A program made the position numbers and the translations under genes. A DNA stretch of 13,941 nt from assembly GCA_945871335.1 (NCBI GenBank), contig CAMBWM010000036.1, positions 1 to 13,941 on the forward strand, given 5' to 3'. The notes beneath the pieces were generated by a model. The model searched no databases, was not told where the DNA came from, and saw nothing but the letters and a program-made list of their open reading frames with translations. Positions 759 through 8,075 of this stretch are shown here, piece by piece. Source of the stretch: Polaromonas sp. YR568 (GTDB lineage Bacteria > Pseudomonadota > Gammaproteobacteria > Burkholderiales > Burkholderiaceae). Position 1 is the stretch's first letter. Each line of letters starts with the position of its first letter.

Positions 759-1385
759 TCAGGCGGCCGGCGGTGCGGCAGGCGGTGTAGCCGGCTCGAG
801 CTTGAGGGCCAGCATGATGGTGGTGACCAGACTGGCCACAGAGGGGCGGCCGGTTTCAATCACCAGGTGCGCCGTTTCGCGGTAAAGAGGGTCACGCAGC
901 AGGTACAAGTCTTTGAGGCGCTGCAAGGGGTCGGCCACTTGCAGCAACGGACGGTTGAGGTCATGGCGTAAACGGCGGAAAACCTCTTCCGGTGCAGAGT
1001 GCAAATAGACTGTGGTGGTCCGCTCATGCAGATGACGGCGATTGGACGGCCGCAGCACCGCGCCACCGCCGGTCGACAAAACATAGTCGCCATCCAGCGA
1101 CAACTCATCGATCACCGACTCTTCCATATCTCTGAAAGCAGGCTCGCCCTCACGCTCGAAAAACTCGCGTATCGAGCAGCCCATCCGCTGCTCAAGCACA
1201 TGGTCAGTGTCAATGAAACGGCAAGCCATCCGTCTGGCCAGCTGGCGGCCGACCGTGGACTTTCCGGAGCCGGGCAGGCCCACACAGGCGATTCGTAAAG
1301 GTTTCGAGTTCAAGGCTGCAAAATTGTCGTCAGGTTGGCAGGCTAACGGGGCCGCCACACAAGCCCGCACAAGGCTTAGCGACAC
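759..1385 (-). CDS. aroK: shikimate kinase I
   Basis: AroK phosphorylates shikimate to shikimate-3-phosphate with ATP in the cytoplasm. The Walker A loop GLPGSGKST is at residues 36-44, the shikimate/Mg site DTD at 59-61, the GGG substrate loop at 106-108, and the lid arginine in LNRPLL (about R145). The start is uncertain. The GTG at 1385 gives 208 residues, longer than the usual 170-180, with about 24 unconserved residues first. A TTG at 1313 would give 184 residues beginning just before the conserved strand [10 protein letters not shown], closer to family length, but it has no visible ribosome site; an AGG sits six bases before the GTG. The C-terminus carries an odd Pro/Ala tail ([11 protein letters not shown]). 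The gene sits 43 bases after pilQ and before aroB, the conserved pilQ-aroK-aroB order. Confidence 0.93.
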
Positions 1386-1428: not shown

Positions 1429-2883
1429 CTAAGGCCCAGCCGCCGCTTGATCCAACAATTTCGGAGTGATGAAGACCATCATCTCTGACTTGCTGCGGCT
1501 GCGGTTGCGGTTGCGAAACAGCCAGCCAAGCCCCGGCAAATCCCCCAGCACGGGGACTTTGGTGTCGTCTGTCCGCTCAGTTTCCTCAAAAATACCGCCT
1601 ATCGAGACGGTCCCGCCGTTTTCCACCAACACCTGGGTTTGCACATGCTTGGTGTCGATGGCAAAGCCTTTGGCGGTCAGCCGCCCTACGCTGTCCTTGT
1701 TAATGTCCAGGTTCAAAATGATGTTGCCCTCAGGCGTGATCTGCGGTGTGACTTCGAGTTTGAGATTGGCTTTGCGAAATGTAGTCGTGGTCGCCCCACT
1801 GGCGGATTTTTCCTCGTAGGGCAGCTCGGTTCCCTGCTCGATCAAAGCCTTGACCTGGTCGGTCGTGACAATGCGCGGGCTAGAAATAATCTTGCCCTTG
1901 CCGTCAGCTTCCATCGCTGATATTTCCAAATTCAGCACACGTGTCAGCGAAGCGTTGAACAGTGAGACGGCAAAAGAGGCCGCGTTATAACCGTTTTGCG
2001 CAGCTGCGGGCAGATTGACAAAGTCGCCGGACGTGACTCCGAAGGTGGGCGGTTGCGCCGGCGCCGCCGCTGCATCGGGCGACAAGTAACTGGCGCCGGC
2101 CTGGGAGTTGATGCTGTTGTTCAAGCTGGTCGCCCGGCCACCCAGACGCACGCCCAGAGAGCGGCCGAAATTATCGGAGGCCTCGACGATGCGCGCTTCT
2201 ATCAAGACCTGCCTGACGGGAATGTCGAGTTTGCGGATCAAGTCATGCACTTGCACAAGCCGGGTGGGCATGTCGCTGACAAAGACCTGATTGGTCCGCA
2301 GATCCGCCAGAACACTGCCCCGGGCCGACAAAATGCGCATCCCGCCTGGCGCATTGGCACCCGTACCGGCGCCAGTGCCTGAGCCCGTGAGACTGCGCGC
2401 CACATCGGCTGCCCGGGCGTAATTCAGCTTGAACTGCTGCATGCGCACCGAGCCCAGCCCCTGCAAAGTCTGTTGCGCTTCGATTTCATTTTTCTCTCTG
2501 GCTGCCAGCTCAGTTTTAGGTGCAATTTGTAAAACATTTCCGATCTGACGCATACCCAGACCATGAGCCTCCAGGATGATGTTCAGCGCGTGCGCCCATG
2601 GCACCTCTTTTAGGCGCAGCGTGACTGTGCCAGTCACGCTGTCAGACACCACCAGATTCAAGCCCGTGAAATCTGCCATCACTTGGAGCAAAGCACGGAT
2701 GTCAATGTTCTGAAAATTCAGCGTCATCAGGCCGCGTCCATCCTGGCTCAATTGATCCGCAGACACCTGTACCTCGGGCGACGCTGGCTGCGCCGCTACC
2801 GGCCAACAAGTCCACAAAAGGCACATCGCCAGATACAGCGTGCGGGGGCTGCGTGTGGCCATCAGAATCGATACAGCGCTCAT
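1429..2883 (-). CDS. pilQ: compact type IV pilus secretin PilQ lacking AMIN domains
   Basis: PilQ forms the outer-membrane channel for type IV pili or competence pili. The 484-residue protein has a signal peptide (hydrophobic stretch about 16-31, likely cut near VAA-Q), an STN/N0 domain at about 52-122 (LNFQNIDIRALLQVMADFTG), one secretin N1 domain at about 147-220 interrupted by a Gly/Thr/Ala-rich linker at 166-181, and the secretin beta-domain at 222-475. The secretin signature VPVLGDLPGLGWLFR is at 443-457. Typical proteobacterial PilQ is about 700 residues, with one or two N-terminal AMIN domains that bind peptidoglycan; here only about 20 residues separate signal peptide and STN, so AMIN is absent. 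The ATG at 2883 overlaps the pilO-pilP stop by four bases (ATGA), so no hidden upstream portion is possible in this operon. A second ATG at residue 8 is a possible alternative start. Confidence 0.93.
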   Translation of the reverse strand: MSAVSILMATRSPRTLYLAMCLLWTCWPVAAQPASPEVQVSADQLSQDGRGLMTLNFQNIDIRALLQVMADFTGLNLVVSDSVTGTVTLRLKEVPWAHALNIILEAHGLGMRQIGNVLQIAPKTELAAREKNEIEAQQTLQGLGSVRMQQFKLNYARAADVARSLTGSGTGAGTGANAPGGMRILSARGSVLADLRTNQVFVSDMPTRLVQVHDLIRKLDIPVRQVLIEARIVEASDNFGRSLGVRLGGRATSLNNSINSQAGASYLSPDAAAAPAQPPTFGVTSGDFVNLPAAAQNGYNAASFAVSLFNASLTRVLNLEISAMEADGKGKIISSPRIVTTDQVKALIEQGTELPYEEKSASGATTTTFRKANLKLEVTPQITPEGNIILNLDINKDSVGRLTAKGFAIDTKHVQTQVLVENGGTVSIGGIFEETERTDDTKVPVLGDLPGLGWLFRNRNRSRSKSEMMVFITPKLLDQAAAGP

Positions 2884-3878
2884 GGCGTTTTCTCCAGCAG
2901 GTTCATAAAGCGTGTCTGTGCCACTTTGTTGGGCTGGGAGACTGGACTGTGCTCATACAACATCAGCCGCGAGGCGCTGATCTCAGCGACTTGCGCCTCT
3001 TCAGCACCCAGCACATCCCCTACACGCACCAGGTAAATCCGGTCCTTGACGCGAACCAGAGCCGCCGCCGGCCCCTGACCCAGCAAGCTGCCCACCAGGG
3101 TCATGCTGGCCAGCGGTTCGGATTGCAGCGGCGCCCTAGCGCGGGCAGCGGCGGGACGCGCTAATTCTTTGACGGCGAGCAAAGGTGCTGGCGGCCACAA
3201 ACGTTCGCTGCTAAATGGCGCTAAGCCCGGCGCCATGACAGGCCGAAGGCGCTCAGTGCCGGCATATTCAAGTGCTGACTTGGTGGGCAGCGCCGAAGAA
3301 TCCTTGGCGTGCGGTGAGCGCAAGCTGAGCAGCACCATGTCCATGCGCAGCATGTCAGTCTGACCGGACACCAAGTTGAAGCTGTGCAAAGCCAAACGCC
3401 ATGGCAAGGCCGACAGTTCACGTGCAAAGCCGGCCAGGTCTTCAAAACGGCCTGTCAACTGCAGCGTCAGGCGTTGCTCTTGGTAAAGTATTCCGGCGGT
3501 CGGCGCCTGGGGCTTGATCAAGGCCAGCTGCAAACGCCAAGCTTTTGCACTGCGGCTCAGGCGGGACATCAGGTGGTTAATGTCGGCGGCGCCGGGCAAC
3601 TGCATTTCGAGCTGTGACAGCCTAGATTGCGTCTGCAGCTGCTGCGTCTGGAGTTCAGTCACCGCGGCCAGCTGCGCGCGGCGCTCACGCAGACTGGTCT
3701 GCAGTTGCCCATGCGACTGCTGCACCTGTTCAATGTCTTGCGAGATCGCTTGCAGCCACACAGACCAGAGCAGCAGCAAAGCCAAACCGAAGACCGGCAG
3801 CAGGGCCAGATGACGCAGCCAAACCGGCCATTGCATCGGCGCGTTAAGTGCTAACGAGGGCAGCCTGAACGCTTTCAT
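2880..3878 (-). CDS. pilO-pilP: PilO-PilP fusion protein of the type IV pilus alignment complex
   Basis: One 332-residue reading frame carries both PilO and PilP. PilO part: short cytoplasmic N-terminus, membrane helix about 20-42, coiled coil about 47-92, ferredoxin-like core about 95-187. A Pro/Ala-rich linker (about 188-250) follows. PilP part: residues APFSSERL (220-227) look like the conserved DPFNPQRL-type motif of PilP's flexible arm, and 253-310 is its beta-domain (PLASMTLVGSL, then ALVRVKDRIYLVRVGDVLG). Normally PilP is a separate lipoprotein binding the PilN/PilO dimer and the PilQ N-domains; here no lipobox cysteine exists and PilO's helix would tether PilP. Both domains should be periplasmic, so the topology is consistent. 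ATGA overlaps at both ends (pilN before, pilQ after) leave no room for a separate pilP. The usual PilP C-terminal tail is replaced by a short unrelated one. Domain calls are from memory of the families. Confidence 0.9.
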   Translation of the reverse strand: MKAFRLPSLALNAPMQWPVWLRHLALLPVFGLALLLLWSVWLQAISQDIEQVQQSHGQLQTSLRERRAQLAAVTELQTQQLQTQSRLSQLEMQLPGAADINHLMSRLSRSAKAWRLQLALIKPQAPTAGILYQEQRLTLQLTGRFEDLAGFARELSALPWRLALHSFNLVSGQTDMLRMDMVLLSLRSPHAKDSSALPTKSALEYAGTERLRPVMAPGLAPFSSERLWPPAPLLAVKELARPAAARARAPLQSEPLASMTLVGSLLGQGPAAALVRVKDRIYLVRVGDVLGAEEAQVAEISASRLMLYEHSPVSQPNKVAQTRFMNLLEKTP

Positions 3879-4459
3879 GGCGGACCGCCCGGCTGTTTCT
3901 CGGCCGGCTCCGTTGGCAGTTCTGCACGGATCAAAAAATGTATGCCCGGCGGAGACCCCTCTTGCTGCACGGCCGTCGCGAGCGACATGTCCAGCAGCTC
4001 AGGCCGTTGCAACCATGGCGCGGAACGCTGCATCTGCAATAGCAAATCAAAAACCTGCGAGTTTGAGCGAGCTGAACCTTTGAGCAGCACCACGCGGCCG
4101 TCCTGGCTGGCTGAACTCAAATAAAGGCCGTCAGGAAGTTGCTCGGCCAGAGGTTGTAACCAGAACGCCGGTTGCCTGCTGGCTGTTTGAAATTCTTGCA
4201 AGACGGCCTCACGCATTCGCGCAGCCTTGAGATCAGCTTGCAGTCCAGACAGGCTTTTGAGTTGTGCATCCAGCGTCTTCAATTCCTGACGAAATTGTTG
4301 ACCGGTCTCTTCAGCGCGCGCTAACTGCTGCGCCAACAGCTGGCTCAGGCCCAGTGCCGAAAGCAGGGCCAGCAGGCAGGCCAAAGCGATTTTTTGCACA
4401 AAAGCCCGGCGCAGTTGCTCCTGAGAAGCCTTGCGATGCGGCAGGAAGTTAATCAGCAC
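3875..4459 (-). CDS. pilN: type IV pilus inner-membrane assembly protein PilN
   Basis: PilN is a bitopic inner-membrane protein that pairs with PilO and whose cytoplasmic N-terminus binds PilM. I place the start at the GTG at 4459, giving 194 residues that open with LINFLPHRK, the conserved PilM-binding motif (family form INLLPHR). An ATG further upstream at 4513 would overlap pilM by 61 bases and put 18 unconserved residues first. AAGGA lies three bases before the GTG, a little close, with GAAGG about 13 bases upstream. A membrane helix is at about 21-43, followed by a coiled coil (about 48-90) and the periplasmic ferredoxin-like domain (about 98-180). The GTG overlaps the pilM stop by seven bases, and the stop overlaps the next ATG by four, implying translational coupling. 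The Pro-rich C-terminal tail has no obvious role. Confidence 0.93.
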   Translation of the reverse strand: MLINFLPHRKASQEQLRRAFVQKIALACLLALLSALGLSQLLAQQLARAEETGQQFRQELKTLDAQLKSLSGLQADLKAARMREAVLQEFQTASRQPAFWLQPLAEQLPDGLYLSSASQDGRVVLLKGSARSNSQVFDLLLQMQRSAPWLQRPELLDMSLATAVQQEGSPPGIHFLIRAELPTEPAEKQPGGPP

Positions 4460-5418
4460 AGGTCCTTGAACCTTCGCAATGCAAGCCCGCAAGCCGTCAT
4501 GAGTCCGGCGCAAGCCTGTGGAGACGGCGCAGGGTCAGGCTCTTGATGGCCGTGCCTGAGGGCCGTCACCGGATCAGCCCACTCGCAATCGCAGCCGGCT
4601 TGCTGGGCCAGAGATCCACACCATTGCGGCTCTTGTGAGGTATCCCCGGTGACCAAAATCAGCGCCAGGCCCGCTGCTAAATCGCCCTGCGACAGAACGG
4701 CCATCTCATTTTGTAAATGCTGGTAAAGCCCGAACGCCGTAGTAGGTTTGGGCCAGACCGGACTTTGATGCACAACGTTGTGACGAACCAGAAGCTGCAA
4801 AAAAACACCATCTGACAGCAGCTGGACAAACGCCATCACGCCCGCCGGATTCGTCGCGGGCCGCAGGCGCAACAAGAGCGCAGCGGCACGTGCACAGGCC
4901 TGGGCTTGGCCGTCAACCACGGTGGGAGTCAAGCCAGCAGACTCGGCCAGGCCCAAACGGTCTTGCAACATGTTCCGGGGCGTGGTGGCTGTCCAGACCT
5001 GTTGCGCTGTGCTTGCACCTGCGCCGGGCACCAGGCCGTAATCCATGGCCAAGCCACTGCCCGACGGATCACTGTTATGCGAAATCGCTTGTTGAACCTG
5101 TTGCTCAAGCGCAGTCGGACTTAAAGGGCCGGGCAGTGTGAGCAACTGAGTCTGCACGGCTGATGCCGGCATGGCCAGAGCTACGCGGCGTTGGTCGCTG
5201 CCTGCGGCTCGTACCAAACGCTTTAAGGCAGCGCTGACGTCCTCAAAGCGCTCGATCTGCCCTTGCACGATACAGCCGGGCGCCAGGGGTTCGACAGCGC
5301 AGCGTTCAAGCCGCAAAAGTGCCCGTCCATCGCGGGCAAGCTCCACCCAGTGCAGGCTGTCAGTGCCGATGTCCAAACCGATAAGCGGCGGATGTTGAGC
5401 TTGAAAAAAAGAAATCAA
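4453..5418 (-). CDS. pilM: type IV pilus actin-like protein PilM, short and divergent
   Basis: PilM is a cytoplasmic actin/FtsA-like protein that binds ATP in studied species and docks on the PilN N-terminus. The phosphate-1 strand is visible as LIGLDIGTDSLHWVEL (12-27), and the C-terminal family block as GLMTACGLALRRF (305-317). The protein has 321 residues against about 350 in the family. The second phosphate motif (usually FVDIG) reads FVQLLSDG (197-204), and the adenosine-side LLAGG is LVTGD (255-259); the stretch between them, normally containing GG.Q...I...YG, is much shortened. Nucleotide binding may therefore be weakened; this is inference. The start is a TTG at 5418: the frame is closed by a TAA eight codons upstream, and no ATG or GTG precedes the conserved region. 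No clear Shine-Dalgarno is seen. It is the first gene of the pil operon and diverges from ponA. Confidence 0.9.
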   Translation of the reverse strand: MISFFQAQHPPLIGLDIGTDSLHWVELARDGRALLRLERCAVEPLAPGCIVQGQIERFEDVSAALKRLVRAAGSDQRRVALAMPASAVQTQLLTLPGPLSPTALEQQVQQAISHNSDPSGSGLAMDYGLVPGAGASTAQQVWTATTPRNMLQDRLGLAESAGLTPTVVDGQAQACARAAALLLRLRPATNPAGVMAFVQLLSDGVFLQLLVRHNVVHQSPVWPKPTTAFGLYQHLQNEMAVLSQGDLAAGLALILVTGDTSQEPQWCGSLAQQAGCDCEWADPVTALRHGHQEPDPAPSPQACAGLMTACGLALRRFKDLC

Positions 5419-5633: not shown

Positions 5634-8075
5634 ATGCCCCGGAAAACCACAGACCCCAAAAAGCCCGAAAGCCAGCCAAAGAGCCAGCCTAAAAGCCAGC
5701 CCGAGGCCACGCCCCTGAACCTTTTGATCCGCCTGCTGAAGTGGGCAGCAGGTCTGACGACGGCCAGCATGCTGGCGCTGCTGATGGTGATTGCGCTGGC
5801 TTTGTCAGTGGCCTATCCCAATTTGCCCGATGTTTCGGACATGCTGAACTACCGGCCTAAGCTGCCAATGCGCGTTTTTTCGGCCGATGGCGCGCTGATC
5901 GGCGAGTTCGGCGAAGAGCGGCGCAGCCTGACGCCCATCAAAGACATTCCGCAGGTCATGAAAGACGCGGTACTGGCCATCGAAGACGCGCGCTTTTTCC
6001 AGCACGGCGGCGTGGACTATCTGGGTGTGGTGCGCGCCGGCCTGGCCAATGTGGGCCGCTCCAAAAGCCAGGGCGCGTCGACCATCACCATGCAAGTGGC
6101 GCGCAATGCGTATTTGTCTGCAGAAAAAAGCTACATGCGCAAAATTTATGAAATTTTGCTGACCTTCAAGCTCGAACATTTGCTCACCAAAGACCAGATC
6201 CTTGAGATCTACATGAACCAGATTTTTCTGGGGAACCGCGCTTACGGATTTGCCGCCGCCTCTGAAGCTTATTTCGGCAAACCCCTGCAAAAAATTACCA
6301 TCGCCGAAGCCGCGATGCTGGCCGGCCTGCCGAAAGCCCCTTCGGCCTACAACCCGATCAGCAACCCTCAGCGGGCCCGCTCCCGCCAGCTCTACATCAT
6401 TGAGCGCATGGAGGAAAACAAGTTCATCACGACAGAGCAAGCCATAGCGGCTAAAAAAGAGCAGCTCAAAATACGCAAAGGCCAAGACGACGGGCGGGTT
6501 CATGCCGAGTACATAGCCGAGACTGTTCGCCAATTGGTGTACGCCCAATACGGGGACGACACCTACTCCCGCGGCCTGAATGTTTACACCACGCTGTCTT
6601 CCGTGGAGCAAACGGCCGCCTACAGAGCGCTGCGCAAGGGCATCATGGATTTCGAGCGGCGCCAGATCTACCGTGGCCCTGAAAAATTTATCACGCTGCC
6701 TGCGGACCCGAAAGAGGCCGAGGACGTGATTGACGATGCGCTGGCCGACAACCCGGACAACGGCGACGTGATGTCCGCCGTGGTGCTGGAGGCTACGCCC
6801 AAAAAGATCAAGGCAGTGCGGCAAAACGGTGAGCTTGTCGAGATCACTGGCGATGGCTTGAAGCCCGCCGAATCGGGACTCAGCGCCAAGGCGCCTGCCA
6901 ACATCAGGCTGCGCCGCGGCGCGCTGATCCGCGTGGCAAAGACCTCAGAGACGGCTTGGGAGATCACCCAACTGCCTGAAGTTGAAGGGGCTTTTGTGGC
7001 CATCGACCCGCGCAATGGCGCCATCCGCGCACTGGTGGGTGGTTTTGATTTTGATAAAAATAAATTCAACCACGTGACGCAGGCATGGCGCCAACCGGGT
7101 TCGAGTTTTAAGCCCTTTATTTATTCGGCCGCTATCGAAAAAGGTTTCACACCCGCCACCATCATCAATGACGCACCACTGTTTTTTGATGCCAGCGTGA
7201 CCGGTAGCCAACCTTGGGAGCCGAAAAATTACGACGGCACTTTTGACGGGCCCATCAACCTGCGAACGGCCCTGAAGAAATCAAAGAACATGGTGTCCAT
7301 CCGTATCCTGCAAGCGGTCGGTCCACAAAATGCGCAGGACTGGATCGGTCGCTTCGGCTTCGAAGCAGACAAGCACCCGGCCTACCTGACCATGGCGCTC
7401 GGTGCCGGATCTGCGACGACGATGCAGATGGCCACGGCTTATTCGGTTTTCGCCAATGGCGGCTACCGCATCAACCCCTACCTGATCACCAAAATCACCA
7501 ACCAGCAAGGCCGCACCTTGGTGGAGACTCCGACACCCGTACTCAATGAAAGCATGCGCGCCATTGAGCCACGCAATGCCTTCATGATGTCCAGCCTGCT
7601 GCAGGAAGTCACGCGCTCAGGCACTGCCGCCCGCGCTCAGGCCACGCTCAAACGTCCCGACCTGTACGGCAAAACCGGCACCACCAACGACTCGATCGAC
7701 ACTTGGTTTGTCGGCTATCAACCCACCCTCACAGCGGCTGTCTGGATGGGCTATGACAAGCCCCGCAAACTCGGCGACCGCGAAACCGGCGGCGGCCTGA
7801 GTTTACCGATCTGGATCACCTTCATGGAAACAGCTCTCAAGTCCACGCCGGTGACTGAGATACCGGTACCCGCCGGGGTGGTCAACGTCGCTGGCGAGTG
7901 GTTTTATGACGAGTTTGCGCGTGGCGCCGGCGTCATCAGCTTGGGCATCGATGGTCGTCCATCCGGCTTACCGGGTGACACCAGCAACCCGCCCCTGCAA
8001 GGAGCAGCGCCACCCACTCAGGTAATGCCCGCGGCCGATGAACGGCGTCGCATCATGGACCTTTTCAAGAACTGA
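5634..8075 (+). CDS. ponA: bifunctional penicillin-binding protein 1A (class A PBP)
   Basis: PBP1a polymerises and cross-links peptidoglycan at the periplasmic face of the inner membrane. The 813-residue protein has a cytoplasmic tail with a three-fold SQPK/E repeat (13-24), one membrane anchor (about 37-60) and the glycosyltransferase GT51 domain (about 80-260) with catalytic Glu in EDARFF (E117) and QGASTITMQ (146-154). An OB-like insert (about 330-450) typical of proteobacterial PBP1a follows. The transpeptidase domain shows SSFK (catalytic S490), SKN (550-552) and KTGTT (680-684), so both activities should be intact. Length is normal. It is divergent from the pil operon, the same arrangement as ponA/pilM in pseudomonads and other relatives. 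Its last 11 bases overlap the convergent cyaY end. Also known as mrcA. Confidence 0.97.
5670..5705 (+). repeat. three 12-base tandem units in the ponA 5' end
   Basis: Units of the form AGCCAGCCNAAR (5670-5681, 5682-5693 and a diverged 5694-5705) are in frame and encode [12 protein letters not shown] in the PBP1a cytoplasmic tail. Copy number could vary between strains without breaking the frame. This is probably a flexible charged linker. Confidence 0.8.

Follow-up and report, generated by a model that had tools for sequence, protein, structure and literature searches.

A PilO-PilP fusion protein encoded in a pilMNOPQ-aroK locus of Polaromonas sp. YR568

PilP links the inner-membrane platform of PilM, PilN and PilO to the secretin, and is described as a lipoprotein that docks on PilN and PilO through a flexible N-terminal segment. 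In the window, that is, the whole stretch of 13,941 nucleotides analyzed here (contig CAMBWM010000036.1), a single frame stands where separate pilO and pilP genes are usual, which raises the question of what this gene encodes, how it arose, and how its PilP part could be held in place. The surroundings are those of the usual pilMNOPQ-aroK locus, with a penicillin-binding protein gene followed, divergently, by pilM, pilN, the fusion, pilQ and aroK:

759..1385, minus strand: aroK (shikimate kinase), downstream neighbour (PF01202, 165 bits)
1429..2883, minus strand: pilQ, 484 aa, with N0/STN, Secretin_N and secretin domains (Pfam; TIGR02515, 478.6 bits)
2880..3878, minus strand: pilO-pilP fusion gene (both Pfam domains, with sequence and fold matches to solved structures)
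3875..4459 (end about 4459), minus strand: pilN (PF05137, 47.9 bits; GTG start inferred; mechanical open reading frame 3875-4513)
4453..5418, minus strand: pilM, 321 aa (PF11104, 111.5 bits)
5634-8075, divergent: penicillin-binding protein gene

The fusion overlaps pilN on one side and pilQ on the other, each time through ATGA, and the coordinates leave no room for another pilP between pilN and pilQ, as a preliminary description of this DNA had reported. An INFLP motif stands at the inferred start of PilN. The secretin best matches the PilQ model TIGR02515, and not the gspD that would mark a type II secretion locus.

The fused gene is one uninterrupted, ATG-started frame of 332 codons (2880-3878, minus strand; 332 aa), and the PilO-like and PilP-like halves proposed for it in the preliminary description were both recovered above cut-off by Pfam scan. 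PilO (PF04350) was matched at residues 49-182 with 69.9 bits against a cut-off of 22, and PilP (PF04351) at residues 220-311 with 39.8 bits against 25.6, so that the C-terminal half holds up against PilP profiles. This second match runs from profile position 38 to 130 (of 146) and so leaves out the first quarter of the profile. A sequence search of solved structures with the fusion returned PilO (2rjz, 5uvr) and PilP (2lc4, 2y4x), and an NCBIfam scan of the protein gave no family above its cut-off. The identity of the product as a PilO-PilP fusion protein is confirmed. It contains no cysteine and has no PilP-type lipoprotein signal peptide with a lipobox cysteine, which bears out the loss of the lipid anchor claimed earlier. 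That a conserved internal start might yield PilP separately was considered and rejected, M215 not being conserved in 19 aligned rows.

An AlphaFold model of the fusion, built as a single chain and not as a complex from an alignment of 44 fused sequences, was modest (mean pLDDT 62.5, pTM 0.29). Together with the domain matches and a comparison of junctions, it divides the chain as follows:

3600..3824, minus strand, residues 19-93: transmembrane helix running into a coiled coil, PilO part (AlphaFold helix 19-93)
3321..3590, minus strand, residues 97-186: PilO ferredoxin-like core (PF04350; 2rjz and 5uvr matches)
3198..3221, minus strand, residues 220-227: APFSSERL motif, counterpart of EPFSxxRL in separate PilP
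3141..3317, minus strand, residues 188-246: predicted disordered linker (pLDDT below 50; junction comparison)
2898..3104, minus strand, residues 259-327: PilP beta-domain (PF04351; 2lc4, 2y4x and 2y4y matches)

Hydropathy peaks at residues 24-42, and on this modest model the first part has the single N-terminal helix, coiled coil and ferredoxin-like core of a PilO. A Foldseek search with the model placed PilP and PilO structures at ranks 1-14, followed by Amuc_1100. Rank 17 was chain C of 3oss (GspC-GspD complex, 65 residues; E 0.029, TM-score 0.77 on the target), which we take to be the GspC homology region; that fold was thus found, ranking behind the PilP structures. The core gave a weak match to EpsM 1uv7 (E 0.13).

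Set against PilO (PF04350; 2rjz, 5uvr), the fusion has the same transmembrane helix, coiled coil and ferredoxin-like core and the same slot after pilN, but adds a second, C-terminal domain, with no stop before the PilP part. With PilP (PF04351; 2lc4, 2y4x) it shares the (E/A)PF-motif linker and the beta-domain reported to bind PilQ, but it lacks the signal peptide, the lipobox cysteine and the LxxWM segment, and is anchored through PilO. The chain had been likened to GspC of type II secretion, which is right as far as the beta-domain and the helix anchoring are concerned, both being unlipidated, helix-anchored chains that bear a homology-region fold; yet it is not simply GspC-like, and GspC is not known to possess the coiled coil or the ferredoxin-like core seen in PilO and GspM. 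Because the fusion keeps such a core, its equivalent in type II secretion would be GspM together with the homology region of GspC, with both functions united in one chain.

Fusions of the PilM-PilN type, reported for PulL in type II secretion (PMC10191384), for C. difficile (PMC6916266) and for most Campylobacterota type IV pilus clusters (PMC11870540), likewise join neighbouring subunits of one complex, but concern another subunit pair, and loss of a lipid anchor would not be involved. GspA-GspB fusions of type II secretion, in which one partner bears a PilP-like HR domain, are described (PMC9239104) as having arisen repeatedly and independently, but their N-terminal partner is unrelated and the system a different one. 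No printed description of a PilO-PilP fusion was found in the literature searched (mostly abstracts, with few subscription journals), in agreement with the preliminary description, although what had appeared there as a single oddity is better read as part of a family with three origins.

A database search with the window protein returned 32 proteins, 31 of them with both Pfam domains; 27 are 79-98% identical to the window fusion and five 45-49%. A search from this second group added 15 proteins (14 with both domains), so that 45 database proteins in all carry PilO and PilP domains, and the two-domain architecture that was to be sought in related genomes is indeed present there. The same 332-aa architecture recurs in many clusters, including P0011 with 345 sequences and P0003 with 121, and P0046 is intermediate between the groups, with 54% identity to P0031 and 50% to the window. 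Cysteine is absent from all but two of P0001-P0047 (47 proteins): P0045 has C110, which lies within the core, and P0047 is a fragment of PilO alone. A profile combining the two groups with the fusion at locus L084 retrieved eight proteins of a third type (P0049-P0056). PilP lay above cut-off in all five of those scanned, and PilO below cut-off in four and unlisted in one. In a profile comparison with the first family both halves of the third type align (98.4%, 269 columns), and a low-confidence structure model of the L084 type had a mean pLDDT of 43.6; both speak for the PilO half of the L084 type, which by itself falls short of the Pfam cut-off. The JGI labels for P0053 and P0054 read PilP/PilO, and the pairing had therefore already been seen by annotation software.

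The arrangement of the unfused genes constrains how such a frame could have formed. In all 103 unfused loci measured, pilP lies out of frame with pilO, and a median of 66 codons (57-91) separates the end of pilO from the first matched PilP residue (the counts of 103 and 104 unfused loci given here include some genomes twice). Simple loss of the pilO stop codon is accordingly rejected, and because the two genes are in different frames the merger needed a frame-shifting change, most simply a deletion that also removed the start, signal peptide and lipobox. The same facts bear on whether the fusion is an assembly or sequencing artefact, produced by a missed stop or frameshift between the halves. 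It is true that both related genomes for which named records exist are MAGs, but the 332-aa architecture occurs in many clusters and other junctions are found in two other lineages; moreover, with the frames different, 57-91 codons intervening and the signal peptide region absent, one base error cannot yield the fusion. We therefore regard an artefact as having almost no chance of being the explanation.

A lipobox and an LxxW segment are present in all ten near relatives whose stretch holds PilP (L083 and L086-L094; the stretch fetched for L102, in genome G464, holds no PilP). The junction was measured in eight of these ten, with L089 and L093 left out, and 44-53 residues lie between the lipobox cysteine and the EPF motif in the seven measured from the right cysteine; an upstream cysteine was taken in L091, which makes the 54 residues obtained there an overestimate. 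In the window group the signal peptide, lipobox and LxxWM segment are all absent, and the end of PilO runs through a variable linker to APFSSERL, the linker occupying the place of these three elements. The lost LxxWM segment probably corresponds to the published PilN/PilO-docking helix of PilP. More broadly, a lipobox pattern was found in 95 of 104 unfused frames, and visual inspection of the nine frames that it missed reveals one in five of them (L008, L009, L076, L106, L108), the others being L028 and L110 (same genome, unreadable), L100 (broken) and L085 (without lipobox). In L100 (G432:C1:1386000-1397000), each of pilN, pilO and aroK is spread over two or three frames, a pattern suggestive of sequencing error or decay. 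With separate, lipidated PilP in the near relatives, sequence comparison indicates that the fusion is the derived state.

PilP was matched in at least 280 of 299 family genomes. Among the matches listed for 399 family genomes, only G001 has a one-frame match spanning the fusion profile. Some match was obtained in 72 of 87 genus genomes, with a spanning match in G001 and G430 and the divergent third type in G478. Among the matches listed for 399 order genomes, a further fusion was found in G579 (2.2 Mb, rated 100% complete), where the PilO (positions 5-145) and PilP (4-146) profiles are each matched over nearly their whole length in one 371-aa frame, and a class search of 369 genomes gave no further match spanning both halves among the matches listed; weaker fusions may have escaped these searches. 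In the G579 locus (L115:5486-6598, minus strand), where the PilP match starts at position 4, a charged PilO tail seems to be aligned at the place of the docking helix.

In a tree of PilO plus PilP (54 rows: 41 of 109 locus rows, window included, and 13 proteins, with P0053, P0055 and P0056 left out because they gave no match to our PilO model), the window group, P0046 and the second group form one clade (96/99). For PilM plus PilN plus PilQ, the tree and the AU tests used 29 rows, window included, and not the fused gene. Here the window group stands beside relatives whose PilP is separate and lipidated (100/99), the third type beside L085, where PilP is likewise a protein of its own (100/100), and G579 beside order relatives having separate genes (100/100). 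On these three proteins a single origin was rejected for all three pairings, namely window group with third type (p 8e-5), window group with G579 (p 4e-7) and third type with G579 (p 1e-5). A single origin of all fusions was also rejected by the AU test on PilO plus PilP with all fused rows. On PilO plus PilP alone, joining the main clade with L115 (G579) was rejected, and joining the L084 type with either the main clade (p 0.436) or L115 (p 0.157) was not, so that the separation of the L084 type comes from PilM plus PilN plus PilQ. The L084 locus forms a long branch in the PilM plus PilN plus PilQ tree and has no PilN row there, and its source is one MAG, rated 82% complete and 6% contaminated; in the same tree, L087 joins the fused rows at a point flagged as long branches meeting. 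The best reading of these sequence comparisons is that the fusion had three independent origins in the order, two of them firm and that of the third type less certain because of the long branch and the single, partly contaminated MAG. L085, sister to the third type, encodes PilP separately (L085:4743-5300, minus strand) and without a lipobox cysteine after the first start; this may be an intermediate stage, seen in a single MAG.

No second pilP was found in four other fused genomes (G001, G430, G478 and G579; 70-100% complete), each of which gave one PilP and one PilO match, both in one frame, the PilO match of G478 being below cut-off. A hidden second pilP, which the preliminary description had named as a point to be checked, is rejected for these four, the window's own genome not being among them; since the two closest fused genomes are 70-74% complete (70% for G430 and 74% for G001, with 82% for G478), a lipidated PilP could still lie elsewhere in the genome. 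Other parts of the machine were also located. G430 encodes a pilin and two T2SSE ATPases; one adjoins a platform protein and a prepilin peptidase, and the other is PilT-like to judge by its size. G001 has platform protein and pilin matches and, in an assembly 74% complete, no T2SSE ATPase match, which may reflect incompleteness or loss.

Constraint on the fused gene was estimated from dN/dS with three sequences only (window, L002 and L003) and without a significance test. For the window against L002 and L003, respectively, values were 0.34 and 0.36 over the whole gene, 0.25 and 0.20 in the PilO core, 0.18 and 0.25 in the PilP half, and 0.44 and 0.55 in the linker; L002 against L003 gave 0.33 for the gene and 0.53 for the PilP half, the latter on a dS of only 0.03. 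The least constrained parts are the linker and the transmembrane and coiled-coil part. These values count against a decaying pilus locus, in which the fusion would be a by-product of genome reduction and the machine would no longer work. Such decay would agree with the small assemblies of the fused relatives (1.8 Mb at 70% completeness, 2.0 Mb at 74%), with the shortened PilM and PilQ, and with the absence of a T2SSE match in G001. Nonetheless, dN/dS is below 1, the two-domain architecture is kept by 45 database proteins, G430 has a pilin, two ATPases, a platform protein and a peptidase, and a separate fusion origin lies in a 2.2 Mb genome rated 100% complete, and we hold decay to be very unlikely.

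We consider it probable, instead, that the gene serves a working type IVa pilus in which a covalent tether to PilO replaces both the lipid anchor and the docking segment of PilP and the beta-domain still reaches PilQ. Tethering by a covalent bond is the simplest mechanism for a chain that is without the anchor and the docking part and keeps the beta-domain. A frame-changing deletion would have joined pilO to pilP, and the PilO transmembrane helix would anchor the fused chain, with the coiled coil and ferredoxin-like core pairing with PilN as usual. The disordered linker, of about 60 residues, would let the beta-domain of PilP reach the secretin PilQ at its N-terminal domains, and the covalent link would stand in for the lipid anchor and short N-terminal docking segment. 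The fusion protein would presumably be made and remain uncleaved, pair with PilN and PilQ, and support a pilus that works.

Yeast two-hybrid assays in M. xanthus reported PilO-PilP and PilP-PilQ contacts and no PilN-PilP contact (PMC3724824). PilNO and a short helix of PilP reportedly come together in a three-helix bundle (PMC11870540), and in diderms the stability of PilN-PilO is reported to require PilP (PMC6916266). The preliminary description had the PilO helix replacing the lipid anchor; the anchor has indeed gone, but the segment reported in part of that literature to dock on PilN/PilO has gone with it. Its further proposal, that the fusion fixes O:P stoichiometry at 1:1, needs rewording: 3jc8 and its companion entry hold 24 chains each of PilO and PilP over the two entries, and since that model is already 1:1, the fusion enforces the ratio rather than creates it. 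Alternatively, one chain could be made and a periplasmic protease could then cut the linker, releasing a soluble, unlipidated PilP from a separate PilO. A linker that is predicted to be disordered and is among the least constrained parts would suit such cleavage, but the freed PilP would be without the lipid anchor and docking segment, both of which are reported to hold PilP at PilNO; we find this alternative unlikely and prefer the intact, tethered chain.

Under covalent tethering, the fusion points to PilO as the partner that PilP can be attached to, and supports a constant 1:1 proportion of the two. Since a covalent bond has repeatedly taken the place of both the anchor and the docking segment, these two are predicted to have no role beyond tethering PilP to PilO. 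The fusion is real, and apparently a functional and recurrent variant of a known machine. A broader and more doubtful reading, which we offer tentatively, is that the lipid anchor and docking helix of PilP might do nothing but keep the beta-domain beside PilO, whence the repeated fusions, and that this lineage might carry a slimmed but working pilus, probably for DNA uptake, as a natural minimal diderm type IV pilus. The PilQ without AMIN, the shortened PilM and an extension ATPase reduced almost to its ATPase domain could, taken jointly and with the same reserve, be parts of that slimming.

No AMIN match was found in the window PilQ by Pfam scan. The PilQ of L095, a typical genus member, has two AMIN stretches. 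L083, with its separate lipidated PilP, has a PilQ that is also without an AMIN match, and the PilQ of L094 aligns without the AMIN region, so that the AMIN loss is probably older than the fusion. The window PilM is shorter than those of the unfused relatives compared, with about 37 residues missing in two gaps relative to L101 and L083; the missing stretch, present in both, reads GGAxLTxLI...YG...PxDY, and the GGSS-like motif near the C-terminus reads TGDTS in the window. PilB is usually longer than 408 aa, the length of the G430 ATPase beside the platform protein and prepilin peptidase (L144:5550-6773, minus strand), which is nearly all T2SSE (22-403). On the G001 MAG contig (L002:3480-4918, plus strand), the pilQ match starts at residue 96 of the window PilQ, and the first part of that gene is in another frame or broken.
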